From: Sulfurovum lithotrophicum
Lineage (GTDB): Bacteria > Campylobacterota > Campylobacteria > Campylobacterales > Sulfurovaceae
NCBI RefSeq assembly: GCF_000987835.1
Contig: NZ_CP011308.1
Location: 1,550,001-1,614,000, forward strand
Direction: 5' to 3'
DNA: 64,000 nucleotides
Of the stretch, positions 6,993 to 30,995 are shown piece after piece. How positions within the stretch are numbered: the first letter of the stretch is position 1; the number at the start of each line of letters is the position of its first letter. Position numbers and translations under genes: made by a program. Below the pieces are notes generated by a model. It saw only the letters and a list, made by a program, of their open reading frames with translations. It was not told where the DNA came from and did not search any database.

Positions 6993-7024
6993 AGTATATC
7001 CGGATAGTGTGCATGTTGTGTGCA
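6993..7024 (-). promoter_or_regulatory. Metal-box promoter of the DUF302-SHOCT-pcoAB operon
   Basis: On the minus strand TGCACA-N5-TGCACA (7024-7008) is followed by exactly 9 bp (CTATCCGGA) and a -10 box TATACT (6998-6993). The half-sites are 11 bp apart, as for OmpR/PhoB-type activators, and cover the -35 position. One of seven matches with the same spacing in this window. Confidence 0.75.
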
Positions 7025-7165
7025 TATGCGGCTATATATTGTGTATGAAGTTTGAAAAATGCGTAGAAGTATATACTTGTCCTGAACTTTGCATGTTACA
7101 GAAGTTCAGGACACGGTTATGTAAAATTAAATGGGTTCTTTAATTCATGTTATCTATTGTCATCA

Positions 7166-8092
7166 TTACAATGAAGTGACAGTGGTTGTTACCTTTCCTA
7201 TAACATTAACTCCGCGACTGTCATAGTAACTGATACTCGCATCATAGGTACCGGCACTTGGCATAGTGAGCAGAATGTCATAACGTTCACCCGGTGTCAT
7301 ATAGAGTGATGTCACAGTCTGAGCTTCGGCTGCGGGACGTCCATCTGCTGCGATCACTTCAAAAGGCAATCCGCCAAACTCGATCTTGGCTCCCTGGTAG
7401 GATGTTTGGTTTGTTCGGATAAGTACCTTCTCCCCTGCATTTGCAGTGATAGCAACAGTAGAATCCGTATTGGCATCTACGCCGTTAACACCATTGATCA
7501 TGAAACAGTCAGGACGGTAACGAACGGTTTTTGAACCACTTACATTCGTACTTCTCCATGTTGTATCGAACGTTCCCATCTGCCAGACGTACTCTTTTGA
7601 GAAAGTCGGTCCGCCATCCCATGCCTCTTCAATATTCCCACTTTTTGGACGGATGATAATCGTACCGTGCATACCCATATCGTAATGAAGTACCGTATCT
7701 ACGTGGCAGTGATACTGATACGTTCCTGCATGCGGTGCTACAAAAGTATAGGTATAAGATCTACCCAACCATGTATATCCGTCAACACGACCAAACTCTC
7801 CATTGCTTTTACTGCCAGCGATATATCCCGAAGTTGCAGGCACGCCATCATTTGCCTGATCTACATCAAGACCATGAAGATGAATTGTATGCGGCATACC
7901 TGAACGAAGCGTGATCTTGACCACGTCACCCTCTGTTGCCTCGATAATCGGTCCTGCCCAATCCCTGTCTCCGGAAAAACCATTCCCAAAATACCATGTT
8001 TTTACTGAACCACCATTATCAAGAGTGATATTTCCATTCATTCTTGCTCTAAGAGTTGTTCCATTTGTTTCGTAGTTAAATGTTCTTGCCAT
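7166..8092 (-). CDS. Two-domain multicopper oxidase subunit carrying the type 1 site
   Basis: A 308-residue protein of two cupredoxin domains. Domain 1 has HTIHLHG at 68-74 and HCHVDTVLHYDMGM at 128-141. These give the type 1 copper ligands (His68, Cys129, His136, a following Met) and one half of a trinuclear site. Domain 2 (about 160-308) has no His clusters. No signal peptide is visible, although the partner gene 16 bp upstream has a Tat signal, so export as a complex is possible. It lacks the second half of the trinuclear site, which the partner at 8109-9062 could provide. Substrate unknown. Confidence 0.8.
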   Translation of the reverse strand: MARTFNYETNGTTLRARMNGNITLDNGGSVKTWYFGNGFSGDRDWAGPIIEATEGDVVKITLRSGMPHTIHLHGLDVDQANDGVPATSGYIAGSKSNGEFGRVDGYTWLGRSYTYTFVAPHAGTYQYHCHVDTVLHYDMGMHGTIIIRPKSGNIEEAWDGGPTFSKEYVWQMGTFDTTWRSTNVSGSKTVRYRPDCFMINGVNGVDANTDSTVAITANAGEKVLIRTNQTSYQGAKIEFGGLPFEVIAADGRPAAEAQTVTSLYMTPGERYDILLTMPSAGTYDASISYYDSRGVNVIGKVTTTVTSL

Positions 8093-8108
8093 AATTTTCT
8101 CCTTCTTC

Positions 8109-9062
8109 TTAAGACGCTACCATGATGATAAGACCACCACCGTAAGGGTTTGTATAGACACCGTTGACCGTTACTCCTGGTACATAATGCGTATGCAATG
8201 GATAAGCACCTGACTGTTCTACAGGAAGAATAACCTCAGCTGTCGTATCTGGTCTGACAAGCACAGTATCACGGCTGATGAAGCCACTGACGAGCTGGCG
8301 ATTGTTCTTGATGGCATTGACATGGTACCCATGGAAGTGCATAGGGTATTCGATCACCCCTGCATTGATGAAGCGAATTGCGACATCCTCTCCTACATTC
8401 ATCGTAATAAGTGTATCATCATACTTTTTCGTATCAGGGTAGATAAGACCGTTGGCAAAATAGTAGTTTGGTTCATAATTATTAATGTCATAGCTCGTCG
8501 CACCGTTTTTAATGGCATCGTTCAGGCGGCCGTCCATATCGCTCATGACCATGACATATTGCTGGTCATAGGTCGGACCGTTTTCATAAAGTGCTGCAGA
8601 ACCATCTGCAGGATTTACAACTAGTGCACCAAAAAGTCCCATCGCCTTGGCGATGTACCCATTCGCATCATCGGTATACATATAGGTACCGGCAGCAGGT
8701 GCAGTAAAGGTATAGGTTTTTGTTTCGCCCGGTGCAACCGTAGGAGTTGAGCCTAAGACACCCTGTACAACAAAATTGATGTCTCTGTCAAGATTGTTTG
8801 TAAGATTTACTTCAATGGTATCACCTTCAGTCACTACCATTCCAGAACCGACATGTCCCGGACCGGGAGATGCAGGATCATCCAATGACCATGTAAATAC
8901 CGTACTCCCATCGATCATGGTTGTATCTTGACTGTTAGCGCTTATATCGTATGTTCTTGTTGCTGTTGCAGCCTGTACGTTGACCGGAGCCATAATCAAT
9001 CCAGATAGAGCAAAAGCGATTGAACCTCCAGCCCCTTTCCTTAAAAAATCACGTCTGTTCAT
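8109..9062 (-). CDS. Two-domain multicopper oxidase subunit without type 1 site, Tat-exported
   Basis: A 317-residue protein with Tat signal (NRRDFLRKGAGG, cleavage near VQAAT) and two cupredoxin domains. Domain 1 (about 35-150) has lost every copper ligand: INFVVQG and MYTDDANGY stand where HxHG and HxH are expected. Domain 2 has MHFHGYH at 241-247 and LHTHY near 289-293, giving a trinuclear half-site but no Cys for a type 1 centre. It is the first gene of a pair with 7166-8092, whose copper sites are complementary. The promoter region upstream has three 11-bp T/A-rich repeats at 9135-9167. Confidence 0.8.
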   Translation of the reverse strand: MNRRDFLRKGAGGSIAFALSGLIMAPVNVQAATATRTYDISANSQDTTMIDGSTVFTWSLDDPASPGPGHVGSGMVVTEGDTIEVNLTNNLDRDINFVVQGVLGSTPTVAPGETKTYTFTAPAAGTYMYTDDANGYIAKAMGLFGALVVNPADGSAALYENGPTYDQQYVMVMSDMDGRLNDAIKNGATSYDINNYEPNYYFANGLIYPDTKKYDDTLITMNVGEDVAIRFINAGVIEYPMHFHGYHVNAIKNNRQLVSGFISRDTVLVRPDTTAEVILPVEQSGAYPLHTHYVPGVTVNGVYTNPYGGGLIIMVAS

Positions 9063-9315
9063 TTTATCCCTTTATGTGTAGAACTCTGCAAGAAAGCTTG
9101 GAACTCTTTTACAGGTTAAAGTAAGTTTATAGGATAAAAATTAAAAAAAAATTACAGGAAAATTAAAAAATAGTTAAATTTTACTAAATCAATAGATTTA
9201 CTTAACTATATGTAGATTAAGCGCTGCACTATGTGTTAAATATATAATGATTGTAGTAAATGTGTCACCCTCTGATGCAGTGACCTGCTACCCAAAATTT
9301 GAGCCAAAACCAGAG
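9063..9315. other. Intergenic region with 11-bp repeats and a possible IS end
   Basis: On the minus strand, three adjacent 11-mers of form TTTAATTTTNN / TGTAATTTTTT / TTTAATTTTTA lie at 9167-9135, just before a TATAAA (9131-9126), and may be response-regulator sites for the oxidase pair. At 9281-9306 the sequence TGACCTGCTACCCAAAATTT followed by GAGCCA resembles the terminal inverted repeat of IS3-type elements; no transposase is present. It abuts the truncated kinase. Confidence 0.4.
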
Positions 9316-9663
9316 TTAGACTATAATGTAAATACTACTGTATGAAATGATATCATCGGGAAAATCCTTAGACTGTTTACCTATTTGAATATTGGTATTT
9401 TCCAGAACATGCTTATAAGATGGCAAACACCATTTTGCATTTTCCAAAAGCTTTTCTTTTATTTGATCCTGGCTATTGAACGTGTACAGTTTGTTGACAA
9501 TAATTGTTTTGGAGATGGAATCAAAATCCTCGTAGATCTCTTCTTTAAAATGATTTTTATAAAAAAACAATGATATATAAAGCATAATGCCCATTGCAAG
9601 CAATAATGTAGAAAGTATGAAAAAGCTCAGTCTGGTCTGGAGTGAAAGGTTATTGAGCTTCAA
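9316..9663 (-). pseudogene. Truncated sensor histidine kinase (N-terminal part only)
   Basis: Encodes 115 residues: a first membrane helix (LSFFILSTLLLAMGIMLYI) and part of a periplasmic sensor loop, then stops. The second helix, HisKA and ATPase domains of the kinase are absent. It begins at TTG 9663, overlapping the response regulator end by 14 bp, the same arrangement as in the complete pair at 37860-39732. An IS3-like end lies just past its stop, so truncation by a mobile element is likely. The product cannot phosphorylate a regulator. Confidence 0.7.
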
Positions 9664-10300
9664 TGATGTAGCCTCTGGTTTTAATGTTTTTTATCAGGTC
9701 AACCGGAAGTTTCTTACGAATGGCATTGATCCTAACATTGATGGTATTTGATGCTATCTCCTCAGGGTGCACATAGAGTGAATGCAAAAGCTGTTCATGC
9801 GAGATCACTTTGTTTTTATTAATCAAAAGATAGAAAAGGAGATCGTTCTCTTTATGTGTTAGGAATATCTCTTCTTCATTATGAAATATCCGTTTGTTCG
9901 TTGTGTCGAATATCATCGGGCCTACTTCAATGTTTTTGGGTACATTTCTGCGATGAAGTGCCTGTATGCGAGCATAAAGTTCTTTCATGTCAAACGGTTT
10001 TTCCATATAATCGTCTGCACCCAGTTCCAGGCCATCTATCTTGTCATTGATGGTACTGTAGGCACTCATAATTATAATGCCCGTCTCCTGACTCTGCTTT
10101 TTGATCATATCTATAAGGTTCATACCAATATCCTGTCCGTGAATATTACGGTCAAGCAAAGCAATATCGTAGTGATAACTTAACAAGTGTCCCTGTGCTT
10201 CATCGAAGGTATTGACAGCATCAATGATCACTTTATCTTGCAAGAACTCTTTTACGATCTGCGAAAGCTTTTCATCATCTTCCAGATAAAAGACCCGCAT
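9650..10300 (-). CDS. OmpR-family response regulator
   Basis: A 216-residue DNA-binding regulator: receiver domain (acidic pocket EDDE near residue 7, phospho-Asp in LLDRNIHG near 51, KPF switch Lys near 102) and a C-terminal winged helix ending RGYIIEAQ. Closest relative in the window is the regulator at 37860-38513, with which it shares LLDRNI, MSAYSTI and the pattern of its C-terminal half. Its own kinase (9316-9663) is truncated, so it may be orphaned or served by another kinase. A C10 tract lies about 158 bp upstream of the start. Confidence 0.88.
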   Translation of the reverse strand: MRVFYLEDDEKLSQIVKEFLQDKVIIDAVNTFDEAQGHLLSYHYDIALLDRNIHGQDIGMNLIDMIKKQSQETGIIIMSAYSTINDKIDGLELGADDYMEKPFDMKELYARIQALHRRNVPKNIEVGPMIFDTTNKRIFHNEEEIFLTHKENDLLFYLLINKNKVISHEQLLHSLYVHPEEIASNTINVRINAIRKKLPVDLIKNIKTRGYIIEAQ

Positions 10301-10457
10301 CCCTTCTCCTTTAAAATATTTTCATATACCGTATAAACCTAGTATCATCTTTTTAGTATATTACTAATATATAAAAATAATCTTTATACTTTATATTATT
10401 TTATGAACGGTTGTACCCTTTATAGTTTCTATCTTAATAAAGCTTTTTTGTTACCAA

Positions 10458-10467
10458 GGGGGGGGGG
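10458..10467. repeat. Poly-G tract of ten bases
   Basis: Ten consecutive G between the cytochrome c terminator and the response regulator, in the upstream region of the regulator. Runs of this length are the usual substrate for slipped-strand phase variation in Campylobacterota. Here the tract lies outside any coding frame, so a length change could only affect transcription. Confidence 0.85.
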
Positions 10468-10480
10468 AGATCATCTTGTG

Positions 10481-10511
10481 AAAAAGAATGTGGTGCACAA
10501 TATTGCACCAC
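10481..10511 (-). terminator. Rho-independent terminator after cytochrome c
   Basis: On the minus strand an 8-bp perfect stem (GTGGTGCA / TGCACCAC, 10511-10504 with 10497-10490) with a 6-nt loop is followed by ATTCTTTTT. It lies 22 bp past the stop of the cytochrome gene at 10534-11100. Confidence 0.75.
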
Positions 10512-10533
10512 TTGTTAAGTTCAGATAAAGAGA

Positions 10534-11100
10534 CTATTTCCCACCGCATTTACCCGGAGCACATTTCATACCACCCCCAGATTTTGGGGCAGGGGAAGCC
10601 ATACCACCACCGCATTTCATCATGCCTTTACCGGTATTGCACATCATATTCATCGCATTTTCGTCCCACTTTTCATTGAAGTTGTCCACGACCCAGTTCG
10701 CAATCGTATCGAGGTCTTCTGCAGAGAGTGATTTGCCGATGGGAGGCATTACACCGAACCGTTTCAGTGCCATAGGCATACAATGTGCTTTGTCAACGCT
10801 TGGATTGACGATGTAGTCTTTAACGAAAGCAACAATCTGTGCCTTGTCACCCTTAAAATCATATTTCAGTTTTGCAGAAACCTTGGCCATTGGCGGTGCT
10901 TTCATGTTCTTCATCATCTTCTCTTTCATCGACATACGGTCCGCTCTGCTCATCTGCATCATCTTCTGCTTATTCATCATCGGCTTGAGCATATGGCAGG
11001 CTTTACAGTTCGCTTCATAAACGGCATTGCCGTTATTGCCTGCGCTAAGCGTCAGAGTGGAAAAGAGCAGCCCTGCCGTTACGATCAGTGTTTTCTTCAT
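10534..11100 (-). CDS. Periplasmic cytochrome c with Cys-rich tail
   Basis: A 188-residue exported mono-haem protein. The ATG at 11100 is chosen because GGATACACCT precedes it and a clear signal peptide (MKKTLIVTAGLLFSTLTLSAG) follows. The haem motif CKACH is near residue 32, followed by a Met-rich stretch (MNKQKMMQMSRADRMSMKEKMM). A later MPPIG segment could give the axial Met. The C-terminus is Gly/Cys-rich, MKCGGG and MKCAPGKCGGK, a tail shared with other small proteins of this window. It resembles the cytochrome at 37434-37844. Transcribed from its own metal-box promoter; probably an electron acceptor for the nearby oxidases. Confidence 0.85.
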   Translation of the reverse strand: MKKTLIVTAGLLFSTLTLSAGNNGNAVYEANCKACHMLKPMMNKQKMMQMSRADRMSMKEKMMKNMKAPPMAKVSAKLKYDFKGDKAQIVAFVKDYIVNPSVDKAHCMPMALKRFGVMPPIGKSLSAEDLDTIANWVVDNFNEKWDENAMNMMCNTGKGMMKCGGGMASPAPKSGGGMKCAPGKCGGK

Positions 11101-11134
11101 AGGTGTATCCTTTTGTTTTGAATTTGTATAACAA

Positions 11135-11166
11135 AGTATATAGGAAAAGTGTGTACAGATTGTGCA
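11135..11166 (-). promoter_or_regulatory. Metal-box promoter of the cytochrome c gene
   Basis: Minus strand: TGCACA-N5-TACACA (11166-11150), then 9 bp (CTTTTCCTA), then -10 TATACT (11140-11135). It sits 35 bp before the ATG at 11100, in the gap after the CueO-like oxidase gene, so the cytochrome can be expressed separately from it. Confidence 0.75.
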
Positions 11167-11181
11167 CACCTTTCAAATCTA

Positions 11182-12627
11182 TTAACTAACAGTGAACTGC
11201 CCCATCATCCCGTTGTCTTCATGTTCGAGGAAATGGCAGTGGAACATATAGGGATTGTTGCTGTCTGCAGTCACTCCGTCCGCCGGGATCTCTACGATGA
11301 ACTTGAGTGTTTCATTTGCCGGGAGATAGACTACGTCTTTATAGCCTTTTTCGTTCTCAAGTACCTGTGCAGTACTTCCGTTACGTGAAACAACCCTGAA
11401 GTGGGTACCGTGTATGTGGAAATTGTGGTCGACGCCCATGTCGTTGATGACCTCCCACTCTTCGACATCTCCCTGGGAAAGTGCCGCATCGATACGGTTC
11501 ATATCCATCGTTTTGTCATTGATGGTAAAGACACCCATCCCTGCCATACCGAGCCTGAACTGCCTGCTGTTAGTCGGCGTAGCAACCGGATCAAGCGTTG
11601 TCAACTGTGCAGGTAAAGAGGTAACTGCCGTAGCATTTTTGTTGATATTGATCTTGAGGAATGTTTTGCTGTACCTGTATTCCTCAAGTCTCAAGGATGC
11701 ACCTGTATCATCTGTAAAGTCCACAACGATCTCCGCTCGCTCCCCTGGAGAGAGTATGATGCGGTTCATATTCACAGGTTTTTCCAGAAATGCATTATCC
11801 GAAGCGATCTGTCTGAAATTTTTCCCATTACTGAAACCAAGCTCATAGACCGTTGAATTCGAACCGTTAAGCAGGCGGAACCTGATCTCTTTGGCTTCGG
11901 CATCAAAGGTAGGTTCTATGGCACCGTTAGTGATGAATGTATCGCCTATATATCCGTTGCTGAGCTGCATATTGGACGGAGAGTAGTCAAGTTGTGTTTT
12001 GTCAGCTGAAAAGAATCTATCTTGTAGTACCAAAGGAATATCGTCGATACCATAACGCTTTGGAATATCCAGTGCCTGACTTTCACTATCTTCAATAATG
12101 ATCATTCCGGCAAGTCCCTGATAGACATGTGGTGCAGTTTTATGAAGATAGTGAGGATGATACCAGTTGGTGCAGGCATTCTGTTGTACACGGTAGCTGG
12201 CAGACCATCTGGCACCAACTGCAATGGGTTGATGTGCTGTACCGTCCATTTTTCCGGGCACATGCATACCGTGTCCGTGCATAGTCGTTTCAACATCGAG
12301 TTTATTGGTGTAGTTGATGGAAACATCCATACCGTTCTTCAGAAGAAGGGTTGGTCCCAGGTAGGTACCACTGATGGCATATGTTGCCGTCTGTATACCT
12401 TCAAAGAAACTATGCTGTGCATTGACAATATCCAAGTCATAGTGCAGCACACCGTTAACATCCTTACCTTCTAGAAGTTCGGGAATCGGGAGTGTCCCCC
12501 CTACAGGTGTACCGTTGCCAGGGTTATCGTTACCCATACCGCCGCTGTTACCTCCACCGCCGCATCCTGTAAGTACCCATACTGCTGCTGCCGAACTGAT
12601 CGTAATAAACTTTCTTCTTTTCATCAT
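11182..12627 (-). CDS. CueO-like multicopper oxidase, Tat lipoprotein
   Basis: A 481-residue three-domain oxidase, probably a periplasmic cuprous oxidase or laccase. The N-terminus MMKRRKF plus a hydrophobic core ending LTGC is a Tat signal with a lipobox, so the mature protein is likely anchored by Cys22. A Gly/Asn linker follows. Copper motifs: HGHGMH at 117-122, YHPH at 156-159, DHNFHIHGTHF in domain 3 and HCHFLEHEDNGM at 463-474 with the type 1 Cys464. A paralogue with about the same length and motifs is at 40743-42191 but has no lipobox Cys. Driven by the metal-box promoter at 12658-12689. Confidence 0.92.
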   Translation of the reverse strand: MMKRRKFITISSAAAVWVLTGCGGGGNSGGMGNDNPGNGTPVGGTLPIPELLEGKDVNGVLHYDLDIVNAQHSFFEGIQTATYAISGTYLGPTLLLKNGMDVSINYTNKLDVETTMHGHGMHVPGKMDGTAHQPIAVGARWSASYRVQQNACTNWYHPHYLHKTAPHVYQGLAGMIIIEDSESQALDIPKRYGIDDIPLVLQDRFFSADKTQLDYSPSNMQLSNGYIGDTFITNGAIEPTFDAEAKEIRFRLLNGSNSTVYELGFSNGKNFRQIASDNAFLEKPVNMNRIILSPGERAEIVVDFTDDTGASLRLEEYRYSKTFLKININKNATAVTSLPAQLTTLDPVATPTNSRQFRLGMAGMGVFTINDKTMDMNRIDAALSQGDVEEWEVINDMGVDHNFHIHGTHFRVVSRNGSTAQVLENEKGYKDVVYLPANETLKFIVEIPADGVTADSNNPYMFHCHFLEHEDNGMMGQFTVS

Positions 12628-12657
12628 CTTGTTTTATCCTTATATTATGATAGGGAA

Positions 12658-12689
12658 ATCATAATTATCTTGTGTGCATGAAATGTGCA
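12658..12689 (-). promoter_or_regulatory. Metal-box promoter of the CueO-like oxidase
   Basis: Minus strand: TGCACA-N5-TGCACA (12689-12673), 9 bp (CAAGATAAT), -10 TATGAT (12663-12658). It is back to back with the rightward promoter at 12697-12728; the two pairs of half-sites are 7 bp apart. Confidence 0.72.
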
Positions 12690-12696
12690 GACAATA

Positions 12697-12728
12697 TGCA
12701 CACTGCATACACACTGTTCTCTTATAAT
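12697..12728 (+). promoter_or_regulatory. Metal-box promoter toward the repeat peptide
   Basis: Plus strand: TGCACA-N5-TACACA (12697-12713), 9 bp (CTGTTCTCT), -10 TATAAT (12723-12728). The first gene downstream in this direction is the small periplasmic protein at 13046-13381. Confidence 0.72.
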
Positions 12729-12894
12729 GCGGATGTACAGAGAGTGAAACCTCTGGAGGGCGTCTCTAACAATAGACGATACCCACAATGGGTTTAACAG
12801 ATGTGAAATTGTGCAAGAGATTCTCAAGTCCTGGCCGTAGTCAAGACGAAGTGAATATCTTGTGCAAGATCGCATTTGTAAATCCCACCCTTCG

Positions 12895-12994
12895 GGCATC
12901 ACCAGCTTTCGCCCATACTGCGTTACTCTTTTTTGACTTGGCTTCAGCCAGGCCTTCAAAAGAGTGCCTTGTCTGAACAAAAGCTGGAGATGTT
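12895..12994. repeat. Long imperfect palindromic element
   Basis: The arms GGCATCACCAGCTTTCGCCC (12895-12914) and, inverted, ACATCTCCAGCTTTTGTTC (12993-12975) pair well. Within them an ACTCTTTT / AAAAGAGT pair and a small GGCTTCAGCC hairpin continue the fold. It could be an intergenic repeat, a small non-autonomous element or a structured leader for the gene at 13046. Copy number elsewhere is unknown. Confidence 0.5.
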
Positions 12995-13045
12995 GTGGAT
13001 ACCGTCTATTGTCAGAGTCGCCCTAAAACACTTAAAGGATACGAC

Positions 13046-13381
13046 ATGAAAAAAGTAGTTGTAGCAAGCATTCTTGCACTCGGATTAGGATTTGGTTTTG
13101 CTCAGGCAGAAAATAAAGCAGCGGTAGAGTTGGAACATGCGAACAAAACAGCCACAGGACCTGACAGTTTTACAGGCGATATGTCTAAAATGAAAGCTGC
13201 CGGAAAATGTAATGCCGAACAGAGCGGTAAAATGAAAACCAAGTCAACAAAGCCGGCAATAAAGCCGACCAAAGCGGAACTTGAGCTTGAGCATGCAAAC
13301 AAATTGGCTACAGAACCAGGCAGTTCAGAAGGCAATATGAAAAATATGAAAGCTATGGGTAAATGCAATACCGGTAAATAA
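13046..13381 (+). CDS. Small periplasmic protein with two internal repeats
   Basis: A 111-residue exported protein of no family I recognise. Start at ATG 13046 follows AAAGGATACGAC; the signal peptide is MKKVVVASILALGLGFGFAQAE. The mature part is two copies of about 35 residues: VELEHANKTATGPDSFTGD with MKAAGKCN, and LELEHANKLATEPGSSEGN with MKAMGKCN, joined by a Lys/Pro linker. Each repeat carries one Cys in a GKCN context, plus a conserved His, suggesting metal binding. It lies behind a metal-box promoter and before a strong terminator, so it is probably a monocistronic, metal-induced peptide. Confidence 0.75.
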   Translation: MKKVVVASILALGLGFGFAQAENKAAVELEHANKTATGPDSFTGDMSKMKAAGKCNAEQSGKMKTKSTKPAIKPTKAELELEHANKLATEPGSSEGNMKNMKAMGKCNTGK

Positions 13382-13557: not shown

Positions 13558-13589
13558 TACACAGTCCATGCACATTATCGCACTATAAT
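13558..13589 (+). promoter_or_regulatory. Metal-box promoter of the Cu(I) ATPase
   Basis: Plus strand: TACACA-N5-TGCACA (13558-13574), 9 bp (TTATCGCAC), -10 TATAAT (13584-13589), 31 bp before the ATG at 13621. No CueR-type palindrome is present, so control differs from the E. coli copA system. Confidence 0.75.
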
Positions 13590-13620: not shown

Positions 13621-15996
13621 ATGAAAACAAATATAAAAGATCCCGTTTGCGGAATGGAAGTCACTAGCGATTCCAAATTCCATATAAACTATGAAGGAAC
13701 AACCTACTATTTCTGTTCCGAGAGCTGTCAGCATAAATTCGATGCTGACCCTCAGAGCTATATACATACAGAGGAAGAAGCCGAATGTGCCACCTGCCGA
13801 CCTCTTTTTACAGAAGAGCATCCTCATGAACATCAACGGCATGATCATGGCACTATGGAAAACAAAGAGAATGATCCTCATGCCGTCTATACCTGTCCTA
13901 TGCACCCCGAGATCCGGCAGGAGGGTCCGGGGAACTGCCCTATTTGCGGTATGGCACTTGAACCTGTAATAGTACAAGCTGAGGAAGCGGAGAATGAAGA
14001 GCTGATCGATATGACACGCCGGTTCAAGGTGAGTACAACGCTGGCACTCCCTGTGTTCATCCTGGCAATGGTGGCTGACCTTGCTCCTGACCTGATACCC
14101 TCCTGGCTCTCTATGCGCATGGTGCAGTGGATCGAGTTTGCACTGGCAACACCTGTGGTACTTTGGGGCGGATGGCCTTTCTTTGTCAGGGGATATCAGT
14201 CGGTCAAAACCTGGAATCTGAATATGTTCACCTTGATAGCCCTGGGTGTGGGTGCGGCATGGCTCTACAGTATGGTCGCACTTCTTTTCCCCCATGTCTT
14301 TCCGCCCAAAATGCAGTTTGAAGGCGAACTGGTACATGTCTATTTCGAAGCGGCAGCGGTCATTGTGGCACTGGTACTTCTGGGGCAGGTGCTTGAATTG
14401 CGTGCCCGTTCACAGACCAACACTGCCATACAGGCACTTCTCGGACTCGCACCCAATACAGCACGTATCGTCAGAGAGGACGGCAGCGAAGAGGATATCG
14501 CACTTGAAGCGGTCAAAGTGGGAGACATTCTGCGTATCCGTCCGGGTGACAAAATACCGGTGGACGGTGTCGTGATTGAGGGGGAAAGCAATATCGATGA
14601 ATCGATGGTCACGGGAGAGCCTGTTGCCGTACCCAAAAAATCGGGAGATGCAGTCATAGGTGCCACGGTCAATGCGACCGGTTCCCTGCTGATAGAAGCA
14701 CAGAAGGTCGGAGCCGATACCCTGCTCTCACAGATAGTGAACATGGTAGCTCAGGCACAGCGCTCACGTGCACCTATTCAGAAACTTGCAGATGTCGTCT
14801 CGAGCTACTTTGTACCTATCGTAGTGATCGTAGCGATACTCGCTTTCATCGGATGGTACTTCTGGGGACCGGAACCCCGTCTGGCCTATGCTGTCGTCTC
14901 TGCGGTAGCAGTGCTTATCATCGCCTGCCCCTGTGCCCTTGGTCTGGCAACGCCGGTCTCCATTATGGTCGGTACGGGGAAAGGTGCTTCTATGGGTGTG
15001 CTCATCAAAAATGCGGAAGCACTGGAGATACTTGAAAAGGTAGATACACTGGTGGTTGACAAGACTGGTACACTCACAGAGGGTGCACCCAAACTGGTCA
15101 CTGTCGAAGTACTTGAAGGTATTGATGAAGAAACACTACTAAGGGCCGTTGCCACACTGGAGAGATCGAGTGAACATCCCTTGGCTGAAGCGATCGTTGA
15201 GGGTACCGAAGCCAGAGGCTTGAAACTTGGCAAAACAGACAACTTCAATTCCGTCACCGGAGAAGGTGTAACGGGTGAAGTGGATGGCCTGAAGGTTGCT
15301 ATAGGCAATGACAAACTCTTTGAAAGTCTCGGCATCGATGCGGAAAAACTTCCTGCTTTGTCGGAGCAGTACCGGGAAGAAGGACAGACCGTAATGCTCA
15401 TAGCGCTTGACAACAAAGCCACCGGTATCATAGGTGTCATGGACCCGATCAAAGAGAGTACGGCTGAAGCGATCGAGGCACTTCATGAAGAGGGTATCGA
15501 AATCGTCATGCTCACCGGAGACAATGAAACCACGGCAAAAGCAGTCGCTGCCAGGCTGCATATAGACAGAGTACAGGCAGAAGTCTCTCCGGAAGATAAG
15601 TCGAAGGTCGTACAGGCCCTGCAGAAAGAAGGCAGGCATGTAGCAATGGCCGGCGATGGTGTCAATGATGCCCCTGCCCTGGCACAAGCGCATGTGGGTA
15701 TTGCCATGGGAACAGGTACGGATGTGGCAATGGAGAGTGCAGGAGTGACACTTGTCAAAGGAGATCTGACCGGTATCGTCAGAGCTATCAGACTCAGCCG
15801 TTCTACAATGAAGAATATACGGCAGAACCTTTTCTTTGCCTTTATCTATAATTCTCTGGGCGTACCGGTAGCAGCAGGTGTACTCTACCCGTTCTTTGGA
15901 ATTTTACTTTCACCGGTGATTGCGGCAGCAGCCATGAGTTTTTCTTCTGTTTCAGTCATCAGCAATTCGCTCAGGCTGAAAAACATAAAATTATAG
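13621..15996 (+). CDS. copA: Cu(I)-exporting P1B-type ATPase with YHS and metal-binding N-terminus
   Basis: A 791-residue inner-membrane pump exporting Cu(I) to the periplasm. ATG 13621 is preferred (AAAGGA just before it, YHS domain directly after). Order: YHS domain (DPVCGM at 7-12, FCSESC at 31-36), His-rich linker ([10 protein letters not shown] near 67-76), a heavy-metal-binding domain (YTCPMHPEI and CPICGM, 90-111), membrane helices, actuator domain (TGE), CPC at 436-438, phosphorylation site DKTGT at 480, [16 protein letters not shown], and a last helix with [15 protein letters not shown] as in Cu(I) pumps. No HMA domains. Confidence 0.95.
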
Positions 15997-20402: not shown

Positions 20403-21056
20403 ATGAAAATACTACTTATGGAAGATGACCCCGTTCTTGGAGACATCCTTACAGACTACCTTCAGCAGTTCTATACGACACACAGGGCGTTCGATTCTGC
20501 AGAGGCACAGGAGTTCATCGATGATGAATCTTACGATCTTTTCATCTTCGACATCAATGTCCCGGGTAAAAGCGGCATAGAACTGCTTGAAGAGCTCAGA
20601 AGTTTCAACGATACCACACCCGCCATTATCATTACTGCCTATGAGGACACAAAACATCTCAAAGAGAGTTTCGATGTCGGGGCACATGACTATATACGCA
20701 AACCTTTTGAGCTTGAAGAGCTGAGACTGCGCATAGAAAAGAGCAAGATACTCTTTCATATAGAGCAGGATGCCCCTGTCAAACTCAGTGACAGACTGAC
20801 CTACTACCCTAAAAAACAGTTGGTCAGTGACGGAACGAACGAAATGCCGCTACGACCTAAGGAGTGTGAGATACTGGAATACTTCATCGCCCATCCCCAG
20901 AGGCTCATATCGCAAGAAGAACTGATACAGAATATCTGGGAGTTCGACGCCCTGCCCAGTGATGCCACACTGCGTTCCTACATACGGAACCTGCGGGAAG
21001 TCATAGGTGCCGACAAGATCGTGACACAAAGAGGATTGGGCTACCGGTATGAATGA
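20403..21056 (+). CDS. OmpR-family response regulator
   Basis: A 217-residue regulator: receiver with EDD near residue 7, phospho-Asp in LFIFDINVPGKSG near 51, TAYEDT, and KPF near 101; winged-helix output domain ending RGLGYRYE. It forms a pair with the kinase at 21049, overlapping it by 8 bp. It lies outside any metal cassette of its own and its kinase is complete, which makes it a candidate activator of the seven metal-box promoters; this is inference. No metal box is seen upstream of it. Confidence 0.9.
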   Translation: MKILLMEDDPVLGDILTDYLQQFYTTHRAFDSAEAQEFIDDESYDLFIFDINVPGKSGIELLEELRSFNDTTPAIIITAYEDTKHLKESFDVGAHDYIRKPFELEELRLRIEKSKILFHIEQDAPVKLSDRLTYYPKKQLVSDGTNEMPLRPKECEILEYFIAHPQRLISQEELIQNIWEFDALPSDATLRSYIRNLREVIGADKIVTQRGLGYRYE

Positions 21057-22197
21057 TCTGGAAAAAAAATCCTTTTATTCCTTCCTGGGGCTTTACATCG
21101 TCTCCTCTTTTCTCTTTATCTCCTTGATAGGCTTCTGGTACTACACGGCACAGAAACATGCACTGGAAAATGAAATACACTATAAACTCGAACACATTGC
21201 CGACAAGAAGGCAGGGGAACTCATCATGGCGCATATGCATGGTACATCCATGAAAAAGGCAATAGTTCCCAAAGATGTCACGATGGCACTGATCGATACC
21301 AAGGGGAAAATAGTTGAAGGAAAGCTTGTCAAACCAAACATAGAAATAAAACCAGGCTATTTTACGGTCGATGACTACAATATACTCATCTCCGATGCAC
21401 CACGTGAACATATGAACATTTCCTATGTGGTCGTCCAGTCCAACATATTGAAAGGACAACTCCACAGACTGAAAAATTCTGTCCTACTGGTAGTGGGGAT
21501 CGTTCTGCTGATAATCATGGCCATTGCATGGATGCTCTCCAAACTCTTCATGAAACCGGTCCATGAGCGTGTCACACAGATAGAGCGTTTCATCAACGAC
21601 GTCACCCATGAGCTCAACACCCCCATCACTTCACTTACAATGTCTGCCGACCAGGCACTGAAAGCAGGCGGCTGTTCCCCAAAAATGCTCAACAATATCT
21701 CCATCAGCACCAAGCAGCTCTATGACATTTACCGTTCTTTGACCTATCTGAACTTCAGTGACAAAAAAGAGATCGCCGAGCCGCTCAATATCAAAGAAGT
21801 CCTGGAAGAGAGTGTCGCCTACTACACTCCTCTGGCCGAGATCAAACGCATCACCTTCAAAGTAGAAGCCCAGGAGACGAAATGCGTCATCCCAAAATCA
21901 CAGCTGACCCTGCTTCTGGGCAACCTCATCGGCAATGCCATCAAATACTCATCCCCCAGATCGACCATCACGATCATTCTGAAAGACAGAACACTGAAGA
22001 TCATCGATGAAGGCATCGGTATCGAAGCCGACCAGCAAAAAGAGATCTTTGAAAAATTCAAACGCGGTACCGAATATTCCGGCGGTTTCGGGGTAGGTTT
22101 GAGCATCGTTAAGAGCATCTGTGACCAGTACGGTATCCAGATAGAACTGGACTCTACGGTAAATGTCGGTACGGAGTTCAGATTATTGTTCCCCTAA
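21049..22197 (+). CDS. Sensor histidine kinase
   Basis: A 382-residue membrane kinase: helix 1 near 14-36, periplasmic sensor of about 110 residues containing a HMHGTSMKKA segment, helix 2 (LVVGIVLLIIMAIAWMLS), then HisKA with phospho-His in VTHELNTPITS, N box GNLIGNAIKYSS, G1 DEGIGIE and G2 GGFGVGLSIVK. All catalytic boxes are intact. The His/Met segment in the sensor could detect metal. Translation is coupled to the upstream regulator. Confidence 0.9.
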   Translation: MNDLEKKSFYSFLGLYIVSSFLFISLIGFWYYTAQKHALENEIHYKLEHIADKKAGELIMAHMHGTSMKKAIVPKDVTMALIDTKGKIVEGKLVKPNIEIKPGYFTVDDYNILISDAPREHMNISYVVVQSNILKGQLHRLKNSVLLVVGIVLLIIMAIAWMLSKLFMKPVHERVTQIERFINDVTHELNTPITSLTMSADQALKAGGCSPKMLNNISISTKQLYDIYRSLTYLNFSDKKEIAEPLNIKEVLEESVAYYTPLAEIKRITFKVEAQETKCVIPKSQLTLLLGNLIGNAIKYSSPRSTITIILKDRTLKIIDEGIGIEADQQKEIFEKFKRGTEYSGGFGVGLSIVKSICDQYGIQIELDSTVNVGTEFRLLFP

Positions 22198-24541: not shown

Positions 24542-24571
24542 TGTTATATCTAAAAAGAAAAAGGATTCAAA

Positions 24572-24964: not shown

Positions 24965-24966
24965 TC

Positions 24967-25531: not shown

Positions 25532-25558
25532 TACTGAAAATAGGTTATCTGAAGTACC

Positions 25559-26197
25559 ATGAATAAACAAATATTGCTTCTTGAAGATGACTTCAACCTG
25601 GGTGACACCATTAAAGACCTGCTTGTTGCAGGCGGATATCAAGTCGATTATGTTACAAGTGGGCAGACAGCGATAGATCTTACCTATGATCATCAGTATG
25701 ACCTGTATATCTTCGATATCAATATCCCGGATATTGATGGTTTGGATATTTTAAAAAGTCTTCGTAATGCGGATGATCTGACACCAGCTATTTTCATCAG
25801 CGCCATGACAGATTTAAAAACCGTACTCAAGGCTTTTGATGCAGGAGCTTATGATTTCATAAAGAAGCCTTTTTATTCAGAAGAGCTGCTCATTAAAGTC
25901 AACCTGAAGCTCATGGAAAAGGATCAAAAAATCCAATATAAAGATCTGGAATATTTCCCAAAAGAGAAAAAGCTGCTTCGAAACCAAAAGCTCGTATCTC
26001 TTGGTGAGGTCAGTACACAGATATTTGATCTCTTCCTTCATAATATCGGCAGAGTCATCAATAAAAATGAACTATATGAGTGCATGAACAATCCAGGTCC
26101 GAATGCATTGAGGTTTCATATCAGCAATATTAACAAAATAACCGGTATAGAGATCAAGAACATACGGGGAAGAGGATATATTCTTGAGCAAAGTTGA
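25559..26197 (+). CDS. OmpR-family response regulator
   Basis: A 212-residue regulator: receiver with EDD near 9, phospho-Asp in LYIFDINIPDIDG near 52, SAMTD, KPF near 103; short winged-helix output domain ending RGRGYILEQS. The output domain differs from the 20403 protein, consistent with another binding site. Overlaps the kinase gene by 14 bp. Last regulator in the cytochrome-SHOCT-KCG cassette. Confidence 0.9.
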   Translation: MNKQILLLEDDFNLGDTIKDLLVAGGYQVDYVTSGQTAIDLTYDHQYDLYIFDINIPDIDGLDILKSLRNADDLTPAIFISAMTDLKTVLKAFDAGAYDFIKKPFYSEELLIKVNLKLMEKDQKIQYKDLEYFPKEKKLLRNQKLVSLGEVSTQIFDLFLHNIGRVINKNELYECMNNPGPNALRFHISNINKITGIEIKNIRGRGYILEQS

Positions 26198-27269
26198 AAT
26201 AAATTCATTTATGAGAAGTATTGTTCTCTTTTTTGTTTCGTTGTCCATATTGATAATACTACTTTACAATCATATCTATCGTGACAAAGTGCAGACCCAT
26301 CAATACACGCTTTATTCCCAAATGCAGATTGCCAGTCTGACTTTACATAGCAGCATATTTACAATCAATTTTGTAGAAAAGTCAAAAGACAAGCAGCTTT
26401 ATAAACTTCTTCGTAACAAGAAGTCTCTTTATGCCTATTTTGAAATATTCAACTCAAAAAAATACTTTACAAAAGTTTCATACCCGCTAGAAAATTTTCG
26501 TAATGACATTGCCATCATCGAACGTGGGATTGTACATGAGATCATTCAAGCCTTATTCCTCGCATTTATTGTCTCTGTACTTTTCTCATTTTATGCACTC
26601 TACCCATTAAAACAATCGTTAAAAATGACAAATGAATTCATAAAAGACATACTGCATGATTTCAATACACCCATCTCTACCATCAGGTTAAACCTCAGGC
26701 TCCTACCAGAATCAAACCCTAAAATAAAACAGAGGATAGCCAGTGCAGTAGATACGATTTTGAACCTTCAGAAGAACCTCAAGGAGTTTATCAATGAAGA
26801 TATGGGAGAACGTGAAGCATTTGACATCAAATCACTGATCGAACAAAGAATAGCATTCTTCTCCGGCAGCTACCCCCATATATATTTCAATTTAGATATG
26901 GAATCAAAAAATATATATACCTACAAAAATGCAATGATCCGGATCATTGACAATCTTTTGTCAAACGCATGTAAGTACAGTAACAATGAAGGTAATGTAT
27001 CTGTTTCCTTGGATCAAAATATATTATCGATCAAAGATAACGGGATCGGAATCAAAAACCCTAAAAAAATATTTGACAGGTTTTACAAAGAAACATCAAG
27101 AGGTTTGGGCATCGGTCTGCACATCGTTGACAAATTGGCAAAAAAAATGGATATTAAAATTGAAGTCCGATCCAAAATAAATAAAGGGTCTGTGTTCAAA
27201 CTTGACCTATCTGCCATTATGGATCAATCACAGCAAACCAGGCAGACAAACACAAAGGATTACCTATGA
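26184..27269 (+). CDS. Sensor histidine kinase
   Basis: A 361-residue kinase starting at TTG 26184; AGAGGA, encoded inside the conserved RGRGY end of the regulator, is its Shine-Dalgarno. Two membrane helices (near 10-28 and 120-142) border a sensor loop of about 90 residues. HisKA has LHDFNTPISTIR, the N box DNLLSNACKYSN, G1 DNGIGIKN and G2 GLGIGLHIVDK. All boxes are intact. It ends with ATGA shared with the PepSY-like gene. Confidence 0.9.
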   Translation: MSKVEINSFMRSIVLFFVSLSILIILLYNHIYRDKVQTHQYTLYSQMQIASLTLHSSIFTINFVEKSKDKQLYKLLRNKKSLYAYFEIFNSKKYFTKVSYPLENFRNDIAIIERGIVHEIIQALFLAFIVSVLFSFYALYPLKQSLKMTNEFIKDILHDFNTPISTIRLNLRLLPESNPKIKQRIASAVDTILNLQKNLKEFINEDMGEREAFDIKSLIEQRIAFFSGSYPHIYFNLDMESKNIYTYKNAMIRIIDNLLSNACKYSNNEGNVSVSLDQNILSIKDNGIGIKNPKKIFDRFYKETSRGLGIGLHIVDKLAKKMDIKIEVRSKINKGSVFKLDLSAIMDQSQQTRQTNTKDYL

Positions 27270-27604
27270 AATATTTACTATTCACACTTGCTTTTTGTAC
27301 AATAATTTACGCTCAGACCATGTCAGACTCTGAACACATAGACCTGCATATGGAGTCAGCAAAACAGACCGACAAGACTCAATTACATCAAATGCATAAG
27401 ATAGACGAGAACGAAGCAATGAAAATTACCTAAAAACAGTGTAAGGAGGACAATATCAAACTGACGCTCAAGCATCACAAAAAGTATCTTTACTATCTTG
27501 GCATGACAACAGACTGCAAGGTCTACATCAATGCACTTAACGGTAAGATACTTACACCTGAAGAGATCAAAAAAAAAGCAGTAACGGATAAAACAGATGA
27601 CTGA
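27266..27604 (+). pseudogene. PepSY-like gene interrupted by an in-frame TAA
   Basis: Starts in an ATGA overlap with the kinase. Signal peptide MKYLLFTLAFCTIIYAQTM, then EHIDLH and LHQMHKIDENEA as in the intact paralogue at 31422-31757. After AMKIT the frame meets TAA at 27431-27433, then continues without other lesions (KQCKEDNIKLTLKHHKKYLY to INALNGKIL) to 27604. Exactly the PepSY-like domain is lost. A single base change would repair it, so the mutation is recent or a sequence error. Confidence 0.8.
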
Positions 27605-27617
27605 CCAAGGAAACAAT

Positions 27618-29507
27618 ATGAAAAAGAAAAAAGAAAACCAGTTTCATTCATGGATCACCTACCCTCCTCTGCGAAACGCTCTGATAGCAGCCATCATTGC
27701 GTTGATTACATTCGGTATGGAATACTTTCTGCAAATCAGCAGTACCATTACGACCCCCATGTATATCATTGCTATTGTCATTGGCGGATACCTTTGGGTC
27801 CGGGAGGGGATTGAAGAGCTCATTGTTGAGCATGAGATCAGCATATCCATGCTGATGATATGGGCGACATCCGGGGCAGCCTACCTTGGAATGTGGGATG
27901 AAGCGGCGGCTCTTGTAGTCCTTTACGGTGCTGCCGAGGGGATAGAAGAATACACTTTCAGTAAAACACGTAATGCCATCCGCTCCCTGCTCGACCTTGC
28001 ACCCAAAGAGGCACGGCTCGTACGAAACGGTGCCGAAGAGATCGTTCCAGCCGAAACATTGAAAGTCGGTGACAGGTTCAACGTTCTTCCTGGAGAATCC
28101 GTACCTACCGACGGTATCATCATCACAGGAGAATCAAGTCTGGATGAATCCCCTGTCACAGGTGAATCTATGCCGGTGAAGAAGAAAGCCGGGGAGAAGG
28201 TATTTGCTGCCACCATCAATGGTGAATCAGCCCTTCTTGTCGAAGCGACCACAGCATTTTCGGACAATACACTCTCTCGTATCATCGAACTTGTCGAAAA
28301 TGCACAGGAGCAAAAAGGCCATGCGCAGATGTGGATGGAACGTTTTGGACGCGTTTACAGTCCCATTGTACTGCTAAGTGCCATATTGCTTATGATTGTT
28401 CCATTTGTTACAGGAGCAGACTCTGCCTACTGGATAGAAAAAGCCGTGATCCTGCTTGTTGCAGCAGCACCCTGTGCACTTGTTATTTCCCTCCCCATCG
28501 CTATGGCAGCAGGCATAAGCGGTGCAGCCAAACGGGGGATCCTCATCAAAGGAGGTGCACATCTTGAACATTTGGGTGTTATCGAAACCATCGCTTTTGA
28601 CAAGACCGGTACGCTTACCTATGGTAAACCGAAAGTCACTGATGTCATCACTTTTCAAGAAGATGAGAGAGCACTTCTAAGCAAGGCGGCATCTCTTGAA
28701 CAGTACTCTACACATCCTCTTGCCAAAGCCATCGTCATATATGCCAAAGGAAATAATATCCCCCTGTTACCGGCAGATGCTTCAAAAACACTGATCGGTT
28801 CAGGCGTACAGGGACACATCGATGACATGCTTTGGTACCTGGGCAGCCCCAAGCTCTTTGAAGAGCTTGGCATAGAACTCAAAGCGCATACTTCCATCAT
28901 TGAAGATCTGCAATCGGCAGGCAAGACCGTTGTACTTCTTGGTAACAGAGATCAACTTCTGGGCCTCATTGCTATTCAGGACACCATACGGGAAAATGCA
29001 GCGAATGTCATTAAAAAACTTCACGGTCTCGGTATAAAAACTGTCATGTTGACCGGGGACAATTCCAAAACAGCACAAAGGGTGGCAGAACAGCTCGGTA
29101 TGGATGATGTCCGTGCTTCACTTAAACCCGATGACAAAGTAAACGCCATCAAGGAACTGATGAAATCAGGTCCGACACTGATGGTGGGAGACGGGGTAAA
29201 CGATGCACCTGCACTTGCAACAGCCACCTGCGGCATGGCTATGGGAGCCGCAGGTACGGATGCTGCCATAGAAGCAGCAGATATTGCGTTGATGGCAGAT
29301 GATCTGAACAAGATCATTGAAGCCATGAAGATAGGTCAAAAAGCCCGTCGTGTCAGCAAACAGAACATTGTATTTGCGATCATTATACTTGCCATTTTGA
29401 TTCCTTCGGGAGTGGGAGGACTCATCTCTGTCGCCATGGCTGTACTTGTACATGAAGCCAGTGAGCTACTGGCCGTTGCCAACGGACTGAGGTCCGGAAA
29501 GATATGA
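27618..29507 (+). CDS. P1B-type metal ATPase with APC motif
   Basis: A 629-residue pump without N-terminal metal domain. ATG 27618 follows AAGGAAACAAT. Visible: actuator TGES, translocation motif APC at 284-286 in place of the usual CPC or SPC, phosphorylation site DKTGT at 328, [16 protein letters not shown], and a last helix HEASELLAVANGLR where Zn/Cd pumps have HEGSTLLV. The final helix and absence of Cu signatures suggest a divalent ion (Zn, Cd, Co or Mn), not Cu(I). It belongs to the regulator-kinase-PepSY operon. The missing first Cys would alter ion preference. Confidence 0.85.
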   Translation: MKKKKENQFHSWITYPPLRNALIAAIIALITFGMEYFLQISSTITTPMYIIAIVIGGYLWVREGIEELIVEHEISISMLMIWATSGAAYLGMWDEAAALVVLYGAAEGIEEYTFSKTRNAIRSLLDLAPKEARLVRNGAEEIVPAETLKVGDRFNVLPGESVPTDGIIITGESSLDESPVTGESMPVKKKAGEKVFAATINGESALLVEATTAFSDNTLSRIIELVENAQEQKGHAQMWMERFGRVYSPIVLLSAILLMIVPFVTGADSAYWIEKAVILLVAAAPCALVISLPIAMAAGISGAAKRGILIKGGAHLEHLGVIETIAFDKTGTLTYGKPKVTDVITFQEDERALLSKAASLEQYSTHPLAKAIVIYAKGNNIPLLPADASKTLIGSGVQGHIDDMLWYLGSPKLFEELGIELKAHTSIIEDLQSAGKTVVLLGNRDQLLGLIAIQDTIRENAANVIKKLHGLGIKTVMLTGDNSKTAQRVAEQLGMDDVRASLKPDDKVNAIKELMKSGPTLMVGDGVNDAPALATATCGMAMGAAGTDAAIEAADIALMADDLNKIIEAMKIGQKARRVSKQNIVFAIIILAILIPSGVGGLISVAMAVLVHEASELLAVANGLRSGKI

Positions 29508-29520
29508 TGCACGTGTCTGA

Positions 29521-30891
29521 TCAATCCGAAATAATATCCAGAGTATCAAAAAACTCTTTCGGATCTTCATAGCCATAGAAGAGATCATTTTTAAGTTCCT
29601 TTCCGTTTCTATCAAAAAAGACGAAAGAGGGCGAGCCGAAGATATTAAAGCGTTTTCGGATCGCCTGGCTCTTTTCATCGGAAGTATCAGTAATATTGAC
29701 CTTGACAGCAACATACTTCTCCTTCAATTTTGCCCTGACCTTCGGATCCTGGAATGTAGTGGCATTCAGCTTCTTGCAGACAGGGCAGGTATCTTTATAG
29801 AAATAGATGATCAGGAGTTTTCTGGCTTTGATCGCCTCTTTTATTTTGGCATCAAGCTCCCTCTCGTCTTTCACAAGCGTAAAAGGAATATAGTTCTTCT
29901 CATCGATCACAGAAACGTTATTCAGAGAGAGTTTTGGCAGAGGATGAAGTATATCTCTCTGACCATATGCCGCACCTATAAGCAGGAGCATACCCCATAC
30001 CAGCACCACGATCCCTATGCCTTTGAGGAATTTGTACCATCCTCTTGCCTCTTCACCCAAAGGACGCAAAGCCCCCAGGTAGATACTCACGACGATGAAT
30101 AAAATACCCCAGGGAAGAAGCGGCGGTACAAGATCTAGCTCATTGAAAATGTAGATGGCTGTGGCCAGAAGCAGTACACCGAATGTGTATTTAATCTTAT
30201 TCATCCACTCACCGGCTTTTGGTAACAGATGTCCCGCACCCAGTCCCAGAAGCAGCAAAGGTATACCCATACCCAAAGCCAGGAAGAACATCGTGACCGC
30301 ACCGAGCATCGGATCTGCTTTGGCAATAGCGATACCCAGGAACGAAATGAGTATGGGAGAGACACAGGCACCCAGGATCAAAGCGGAAATGGCACCGAGT
30401 AAAAAGACCATTGGACCGCTGCCTCCCTTGATATGCTGGGAACTGGCGTTCAGTTTTGACTGTATAAATGAAGGAAGCTGTATTTCGTACAGTCCGAACA
30501 TAGAAAGTGCCATAGCTACAAAGATCAGAGAGATGGCCCCTATGGCCCATACATTTTGAAAATAAGCCTGCAACTGTTCCCCAGTAGCACCTGCCAGTGC
30601 ACCCATGACCGTGTAAGTCAGTATGGTCCCCAGCACATAGGCAGCAGAAAGATACAGGGCTTTGGCCTTGGTAATTTCCTTTCCCTGCCCTACGATAATA
30701 CTTGATACAATGGGTACCATCGGAAGTACACAGGGTGTAAAAGTAAGCAAAAGACCTGCCACAAAAGAGCCCAGCGCCAGACTGAGCACCCCTTCATTCC
30801 CGGAAACCGTCTCCGTATCCACTCCTGCATAAAGCAGTGTAGCTGACAGCAAAACAAATACTGACAGAATCATCCATCTATTTTTTTTCAT
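29521..30891 (-). CDS. dsbD: DsbD-type thiol:disulfide interchange protein, lacking alpha domain
   Basis: A 456-residue inner-membrane electron transporter. Signal/anchor at 1-22, then the eight-helix beta domain with its Cys pair in LTFTPCVLPM and ILGACVSPI, then a periplasmic thioredoxin domain with KDTCPVCKKLN (near 350) . The N-terminal DsbD-alpha domain of E. coli is absent, as in CcdA-thioredoxin or ScsB-like variants. Transcribed from a metal-box promoter divergent from the tripartite pump; it likely keeps the Cys-rich periplasmic peptides and cytochromes of this island reduced. Confidence 0.9.
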   Translation of the reverse strand: MKKNRWMILSVFVLLSATLLYAGVDTETVSGNEGVLSLALGSFVAGLLLTFTPCVLPMVPIVSSIIVGQGKEITKAKALYLSAAYVLGTILTYTVMGALAGATGEQLQAYFQNVWAIGAISLIFVAMALSMFGLYEIQLPSFIQSKLNASSQHIKGGSGPMVFLLGAISALILGACVSPILISFLGIAIAKADPMLGAVTMFFLALGMGIPLLLLGLGAGHLLPKAGEWMNKIKYTFGVLLLATAIYIFNELDLVPPLLPWGILFIVVSIYLGALRPLGEEARGWYKFLKGIGIVVLVWGMLLLIGAAYGQRDILHPLPKLSLNNVSVIDEKNYIPFTLVKDERELDAKIKEAIKARKLLIIYFYKDTCPVCKKLNATTFQDPKVRAKLKEKYVAVKVNITDTSDEKSQAIRKRFNIFGSPSFVFFDRNGKELKNDLFYGYEDPKEFFDTLDIISD

Positions 30892-30923
30892 TTTATTTAC
30901 CTATGTATTGAAATTATATAAGC

Positions 30924-30955
30924 AGTATAATCAAAGCCTGTGCAAGGTTTGTGTA
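30924..30955 (-). promoter_or_regulatory. Metal-box promoter of dsbD
   Basis: Minus strand: TACACA-N5-TGCACA (30955-30939), 9 bp (GGCTTTGAT), -10 TATACT (30929-30924), 33 bp before the dsbD ATG. Back to back with the pump promoter at 30964. Confidence 0.75.
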
Positions 30956-30963
30956 GATACCAC

Positions 30964-30995
30964 TGCACACTCCTTACACGAAAATAAAATATAAT
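30964..30995 (+). promoter_or_regulatory. Metal-box promoter of the tripartite pump operon
   Basis: Plus strand: TGCACA-N5-TACACG (30964-30980), 9 bp (AAAATAAAA), -10 TATAAT (30990-30995). It precedes the small His/Cys peptide gene at 31053 and, through it, the pump genes to 37121. Confidence 0.75.

Follow-up and report, generated by a model that had tools for sequence, protein, structure and literature searches.

Seven boxed promoters in the copper region

The 64,000-nucleotide window analysed here (Sulfurovum lithotrophicum contig NZ_CP011308.1, positions 1,550,001 to 1,614,000; coordinates refer to the window unless the genome is named) contains a copper-rich region in which seven promoters, spread over 24 kb, carry the same element, a pair of TRCACR half-sites followed at a fixed distance by a -10 hexamer. 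A sequence-only reading of the window had listed these sites, and all seven were verified at their coordinates and on their strands. The layout TRCACR-N5-TRCACR-N9-TAT(A/G)(A/C)T is invariant at 7/7 sites, while the N5 and N9 sequences differ. The sites, together with a two-component pair encoded between them, are as follows.

6993-7024 (-): box 1, TGCACA-CAACA-TGCACA-CTATCCGGA-TATACT, before DUF302/SHOCT/pcoA/copB
11135-11166 (-): box 2, TGCACA-ATCTG-TACACA-CTTTTCCTA-TATACT, before a cytochrome c gene
12658-12689 (-): box 3, TGCACA-TTTCA-TGCACA-CAAGATAAT-TATGAT, before a CueO-like multicopper oxidase
12697-12728 (+): box 4, TGCACA-CTGCA-TACACA-CTGTTCTCT-TATAAT, upstream of a repeat peptide and divergent from box 3
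13558-13589 (+): box 5, TACACA-GTCCA-TGCACA-TTATCGCAC-TATAAT, before CopA
20403-21056 (+): OmpR/PhoB-family response regulator P0001 (20403 below), proposed box-binding activator
21049-22197 (+): sensor histidine kinase P0008, beside 20403
30924-30955 (-): box 6, TACACA-AACCT-TGCACA-GGCTTTGAT-TATACT, before dsbD
30964-30995 (+): box 7, TGCACA-CTCCT-TACACG-AAAATAAAA-TATAAT, before an OMF-HlyD-RND (CusA/CzcA-type) operon and divergent from box 6

The window holds seven exact matches to the box followed by TATNNT, compared with a mean of 0.0 and a maximum of 0 in 200 dinucleotide-preserving shuffles. A scan of the whole genome (2.2 Mb) revealed 12 exact boxes, seven in the window and five elsewhere, against 0 for a reversed control pattern, which places the element above the random rate. 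When the -10 requirement was dropped, 15 half-site pairs were found in the genome (control 6), and 12 of these 15 are followed by N9-TATNNT. Nine base pairs separate the second half-site from the -10 hexamer, and the 17-bp tandem site therefore lies over the place that a -35 hexamer would occupy. A site over the -35 region at a fixed 9 bp from TAT(A/G)(A/C)T, seen at 7/7 sites, is the arrangement of a class II promoter, and direct half-sites in 11-bp phase are that of OmpR/PhoB tandem sites; the proposal of an OmpR/PhoB-type 11-bp direct repeat over -35 was thus upheld. Counted from the final nucleotide of the -10 hexamer, five of the seven start codons are 29-35 nt away (DUF302 29, cytochrome c 35, CueO-like oxidase 31, CopA 32, DsbD 33). 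The other two distances are 58 nt, to the first gene of the pump operon, and 318 nt, to the repeat-peptide gene, where an inverted-repeat element is inserted.

Conservation in related genomes

The sequence-only reading had proposed related genomes as a check on the box, which is indeed kept in 31 of 60 relatives (130 distinct boxes; control matches 0). Across the class, 31 of 397 near-complete genomes contain it, mostly those of the own genus (g1) and of families f4 and f16, with scattered single matches elsewhere. We infer that family f16 is Sulfurimonas-like; orthologues of 20403 are 53-59% identical in named Sulfurimonas records and 54-61% identical in f16 genomes, and the orthologue in G013 is 83% identical. 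Individual window sites also have counterparts: an orthologous box 1, TGCACACTACATGCACACTCTCCCGATATACT, is present in genome G024, where the position of box 2 is conserved as well, and boxes precede copA orthologues, as box 5 does, in many relatives.

Analysis of 36 loci around close orthologues of 20403 identified 104 boxes at a matrix score of at least 18, compared with 0 in the same DNA after shuffling. Around these orthologues the start-to-start distance of the half-sites is 11 in 99 cases, with all other distances occurring at most 5 times, and the distance from half-site to TA(T/A)NNT is 9 in 62 cases, the next highest count being 12. The boxes lie where promoters are expected: 66 of the 104 are 10-120 nt upstream of the start of a same-strand open reading frame (ORF), versus 5.8% of random positions, with a median of 32 nt from -10 to start. 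First genes could be assigned behind 73 boxes, and 58 of them resemble genes of the copper cluster in the window, including CopA (14) and the regulator itself (9). The conserved promoter architecture and the regulon that it defines are real. No published description of a TRCACR box was found in the literature searched, most subscription journals being outside that search.

The response regulator 20403 as candidate reader

Four OmpR-type or related response regulators are encoded in the window. The one at 20403 has the domain structure of the OmpR/PhoB family (Response_reg, PF00072, E 1.2e-23; Trans_reg_C, PF00486, E 3.2e-18), and orthologues with more than 70% identity occur in 17 of 60 genomes, its own included. 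A box stands 27-159 bp upstream of the regulator gene in 16 of the 36 orthologue loci. The strongest argument for 20403-type proteins as readers of the box is co-occurrence in f16, where all 12 box-positive genomes have a 20403 orthologue (E<=1e-73) compared with 2 of 39 box-negative genomes (Fisher 5.7e-10; within genus g16 1.1e-6; both values ignore shared ancestry). Taken as a whole, these data make it quite likely that proteins of the 20403 type bind and activate the boxed promoters.

Several points, besides the ancestry shared by the f16 genomes, weigh against this assignment. No box was found on the promoter of 20403 in this genome. The scoring matrix behind the 104 boxes was built partly with boxes from some of the same genomes, and the evidence for copper as the signal (see below) comes from gene content and sensor residues only. 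Finally, the Sulfurovum genomes G020 and G027 (99-100% complete) keep boxes on copA, pcoA and other copper genes but have no 20403 orthologue; another protein can therefore read the box. The sequence-only reading had suggested a single regulator, possibly the 20403-22197 pair, and the choice of pair is favoured by the boxes around its orthologues and by the f16 distribution, whereas G020 and G027 speak against a single reader.

The best candidate reader in Sulfurovum genomes without a 20403 orthologue appears to be the paralogue P0005, encoded outside the window (genome 581736-582386, beside dnaK). P0005 occurs in 31 of 37 genus-g1 genomes and is absent from the box-less G006, G021, G034, G035 and G036 (Fisher 0.004 when restricted to genomes with a completeness of 90% or more). 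Orthologues of copA are boxed in G020, G027 and G023, which have P0005 and lack 20403, and unboxed in G034 and G035, which lack both. The recognition helix of P0005, THATIRTYIKNLR, is also close to that of 20403, SDATLRSYIRNLR. These data could even mean that P0005 is the main reader of the box and that 20403 regulates something else or merely modulates, which we consider possible but rather unlikely: among the relatives searched, none outside the genus has P0005, yet boxes persist in f16 genomes with 20403 orthologues, and no box was found at the P0005 promoter in the loci scanned, compared with 16 of 36 loci for 20403 orthologues. The correspondence within the genus is also imperfect, since G011 has P0005 but no box and G031 (69% complete) has a box but no P0005. 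Because boxes occur without 20403, and because of the distribution of P0005, the pattern of copA boxes and the similar helices, we propose that the regulator role is probably shared by two paralogues, 20403 and P0005, with overlapping specificity; the negative genomes are few and related. The A/G preference within the box differs between sites near 20403 orthologues and sites in genomes without 20403 (Fisher 2e-4), which is merely suggestive because the sequences are related. Two other candidates, P0006 (genome 791188) and P0007 (genome 1285957), were rejected: P0006-type genes are also found in the box-less G034-G036, and close orthologues of P0007 do not follow the box.

It is very unlikely that the box is bound by a regulator of another family, such as MerR/CueR or an orphan essential regulator. 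The survey covered part of the regulators of the genome, and CueR was outside the search, which leaves some room for such a protein; however, head-to-tail repeats of 11 bp at a fixed distance from -10 are a signature of OmpR/PhoB proteins and not of a MerR palindrome in a long spacer, and outside the genus the box tracks 20403 orthologues. The window sites do not have the CueR-type layout of a palindrome in a 19-bp spacer, the CueR gene itself not having been searched for in this genome; they are direct repeats 9 bp from -10, as the sequence-only reading had maintained in stating that CueR-type palindromes are not used.

Control by any of the three remaining regulators of the window, 9650, 25559 and 37860, which had been named as candidates and sit in the same copper-rich region, is more improbable still. 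Their recognition helices differ from that of 20403, and they are confined to this species and one or two others: close orthologues of 25559 were found only in G024 and those of 37860 only in G024 and G022, whereas boxes occur in 31 of 60 genomes, and none of the three was retained as a general reader. The 9650 protein turned up solely in this genome, as the 51% paralogue of 37860. In the stretch 9316-10300 (-), where a kinase would be expected after the 9650 gene, there is just a short ORF of 92-115 aa that matches nothing in Pfam, and the 9650 pair may therefore be degraded. That the promoters resemble each other by recent duplication or by chance, with no common regulator, can practically be dismissed even though several target genes are neighbours, given the differing N5 and N9 sequences, the unrelated target genes, the five distant copies in the genome, the conservation across families and the near absence of control matches.

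Probable copper signal and proposed mechanism

The N-terminal sensor part of the kinase P0008 contains residues that are conserved among 31 Sulfurovum-type orthologues (His49 0.97, Met63 1.00, His121 1.00 and His62 0.87), and Met63 and His121 are also conserved in the Sulfurimonas set. His49, Met63 and His121, with His62 in most orthologues, are plausible Cu(I) ligands. Because of these sensor residues and the gene content of the regulon, copper is the likely signal of the 20403-kinase pair.

A mechanism is proposed where the seven sites act as class II-type activator promoters of one regulon. The kinase at 21049-22197 would probably sense periplasmic copper through its conserved His and Met residues, and a 20403 dimer would bind the two TRCACR half-sites, 11 bp apart, in head-to-tail orientation, as OmpR/PhoB proteins do on such repeats (PMC4660055). 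Positioned over a poorly conserved -35 region and 9 bp from -10, the bound regulator could recruit sigma-70 RNA polymerase, consistent with the mechanism for a tandem site over the -35 region (PMC3335776); activation from direct repeats over -35 is used in Campylobacterota by Sulfurospirillum PceP (PMC7755780). Excess copper would thereby switch on export (CopA and the RND pump), periplasmic oxidation and binding (the multicopper oxidases, PcoA/CopB, cytochrome c and the repeat peptide) and the handling of disulfides (DsbD). Where the pair has the box on its own promoter, as in many relatives, this would add positive feedback, which is not visible in this genome. P0005, which has the same type of recognition helix, probably also reads the box and would serve those genomes that lack a 20403 orthologue.

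Comparison with known systems

The heavy-metal regulators CopR/CusR/CztR with their kinases CopS/CusS are two-component systems that, as proposed here for the 20403 pair, control genes for copper export and oxidases. The 20403 pair falls under the curated cut-offs for both families: 20403 scores 79.3 bits with TIGR01387 (CopR/CusR/CztR; cut-off 279.2) and the kinase 90 bits with TIGR01386 (CopS/CusS; cut-off 292.6). Indeed, 20403 falls far short of the cut-off of every NCBIfam equivalog listed. Because these cut-offs are not reached, 20403 appears to lie outside the named copper family, and its regulon would operate in the manner of a PhoP- or CusR-type system while not belonging to that family. 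In DccRS of Campylobacter jejuni, a TTCAC-N6-TTCAC direct repeat over -35 has the same 11-bp phase and CAC core; the regulon is not known to be copper-related, and we take this likeness as a lead only. The Salmonella PhoP box at class II, mgtA-type promoters has the half-site (T/G)GTTTA instead of TRCACR, with other signals and genes, and the E. coli CpxR box, GTAAA-N5-6-GTAAA, has a similar tandem spacing but a different half-site. Studies cited in PMC9600279 connect CpxR with promoters that copper induces. In the same phylum, CrdRS of Helicobacter pylori is a copper-responsive OmpR-type two-component system (PMC9449129), for which the texts consulted describe no binding box. PceP (RR2) of Sulfurospirillum is likewise an OmpR-family activator with direct repeats over -35, but its half-sites are CTATW and are 17 bp apart (PMC7755780).

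The specificity for TRCACR tandem repeats thus lies outside the copper-regulator families compared here. The consensus is strong enough for targets to be predicted from sequence alone, which makes a copper regulon readable, with 20403 as a named regulator candidate, in Sulfurovum and Sulfurimonas-type bacteria, which abound at vents and are difficult to manipulate genetically.

A candidate small RNA in the regulon

Downstream of ppnP, an intergenic box at genome position 2182808 is directed into the interval that separates ppnP from nrdB, where a candidate small RNA was identified at 2182841-2182930 (G000; L012:1534-1623). The 90-nt start of the transcript is predicted to form three stems with a C-rich loop of about 20 nt, and folding z-scores are -5.6, -2.5 and -3.8 for the copies in G000, G024 and G030, respectively. 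A covariance model for which only the RNA portion of these three copies was used revealed two more, in G014 (72 bits) and G015 (69 bits), giving five genomes in all. In both new copies a box can be recognised, TTCACA-N5-TACACA-N9-TATACT, and its distance is unchanged; since the model was built without the box, this independently confirms that box and RNA go together. Across the five sequences 8 of 23 pairs are changed on both sides, compared with 2.9 in shuffles. A further copy in G001 has the box and the C-rich loop, but it folds no better than shuffles and was missed by the model, and it is not counted as firm.

Rfam gave no match for the small RNA, nor for any part of the window; the small RNA links the regulon to a new candidate small-RNA family. 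Its C-rich loop is reminiscent of RepG in H. pylori, whose target is a G-repeat in the leader of an mRNA (PMC8295292). We tentatively suggest, as an idea that is somewhat more doubtful than not, that the box shared by 20403 and P0005 also drives a conserved small RNA that could pair with G-rich ribosome-binding sites, which would add a post-transcriptional arm to a metal and envelope stress regulon in free-living Campylobacterota.

Target genes and extent of the regulon

The genes behind the window boxes are as follows.

3915-6964 (-): box 1 operon, comprising DUF302 (6577-6964), SHOCT (6346-6555), a PcoA-type oxidase (4630-6333) and CopB (3915-4619)
10534-11100 (-): c-type cytochrome, box 2 target
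11182-12627 (-): CueO-like multicopper oxidase, box 3 target
13046-13381 (+): secreted repeat peptide, box 4 target
13621-15996 (+): copper P-type ATPase CopA (YHS-HMBD type; TIGR01511 above cut-off), box 5 target
29521-30891 (-): DsbD-like protein, box 6 target
31053-37121 (+): small proteins, OMF, HlyD and a CusA/CzcA-type RND pump (TIGR00914 above cut-off), box 7 target

These are the targets that the sequence-only reading had named, with two corrections: the DUF302 gene is frameshifted, and the pump operon begins with a small protein at 31053. Its description of a copper regulon holds for the copper genes served but is too narrow. The five boxes outside the window precede, besides the small RNA, genes whose functions were read by eye (genome positions): at 570884 a small membrane protein, at 1087282 a DoxX operon, at 1274731 an acyl-CoA synthetase operon that runs divergently from a CopZ-like protein, and at 1531389 a small protein carrying a CxxCH motif of the haem type. 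A box also stands before a cytochrome c oxidase operon in the relative G029. With a small RNA, a small membrane protein, a DoxX operon, a fatty-acid operon and, in a single relative, a cytochrome oxidase among its predicted members, the regulon is wider than copper.

Two boxes in relatives precede other kinds of gene. In G027 a box (L101:5508, -) precedes a gene of 857 aa that was taken by eye for the chaperone ClpB, which suggests that in some relatives the box serves proteotoxic stress too. In G039, from another family, a box (L113:7606, +) precedes what was read by eye as a DUF2063-DoxX cluster. This cluster resembles the operons of bufferins, copper-storage peptides.

The frameshift in the DUF302 gene (6577-6964, -) falls at a G7/C7 tract (6788-6794), which the G024 copy reads through; a phase-variable tract and a sequence error are both possible. 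Homopolymer G tracts of 10 bases (10458-10467) and 8 bases (3879-3886) are also present. Tracts of this kind have been associated with phase variation in Campylobacterota. An insert of about 270 bp, bounded by an imperfect 32-bp inverted repeat (88%; 12757-12788 and 12993-13024), separates box 4 from the repeat-peptide gene and is a MITE-like element. G024 has two copies of the repeat-peptide gene, one with a box 51 nt away; one copy appears to carry an insert too and the other does not. Finally, two adjoining ORFs of about 310 aa at 7166-9062 (-), each with multicopper-oxidase domains and with no box in front, look like a split or two-part oxidase.

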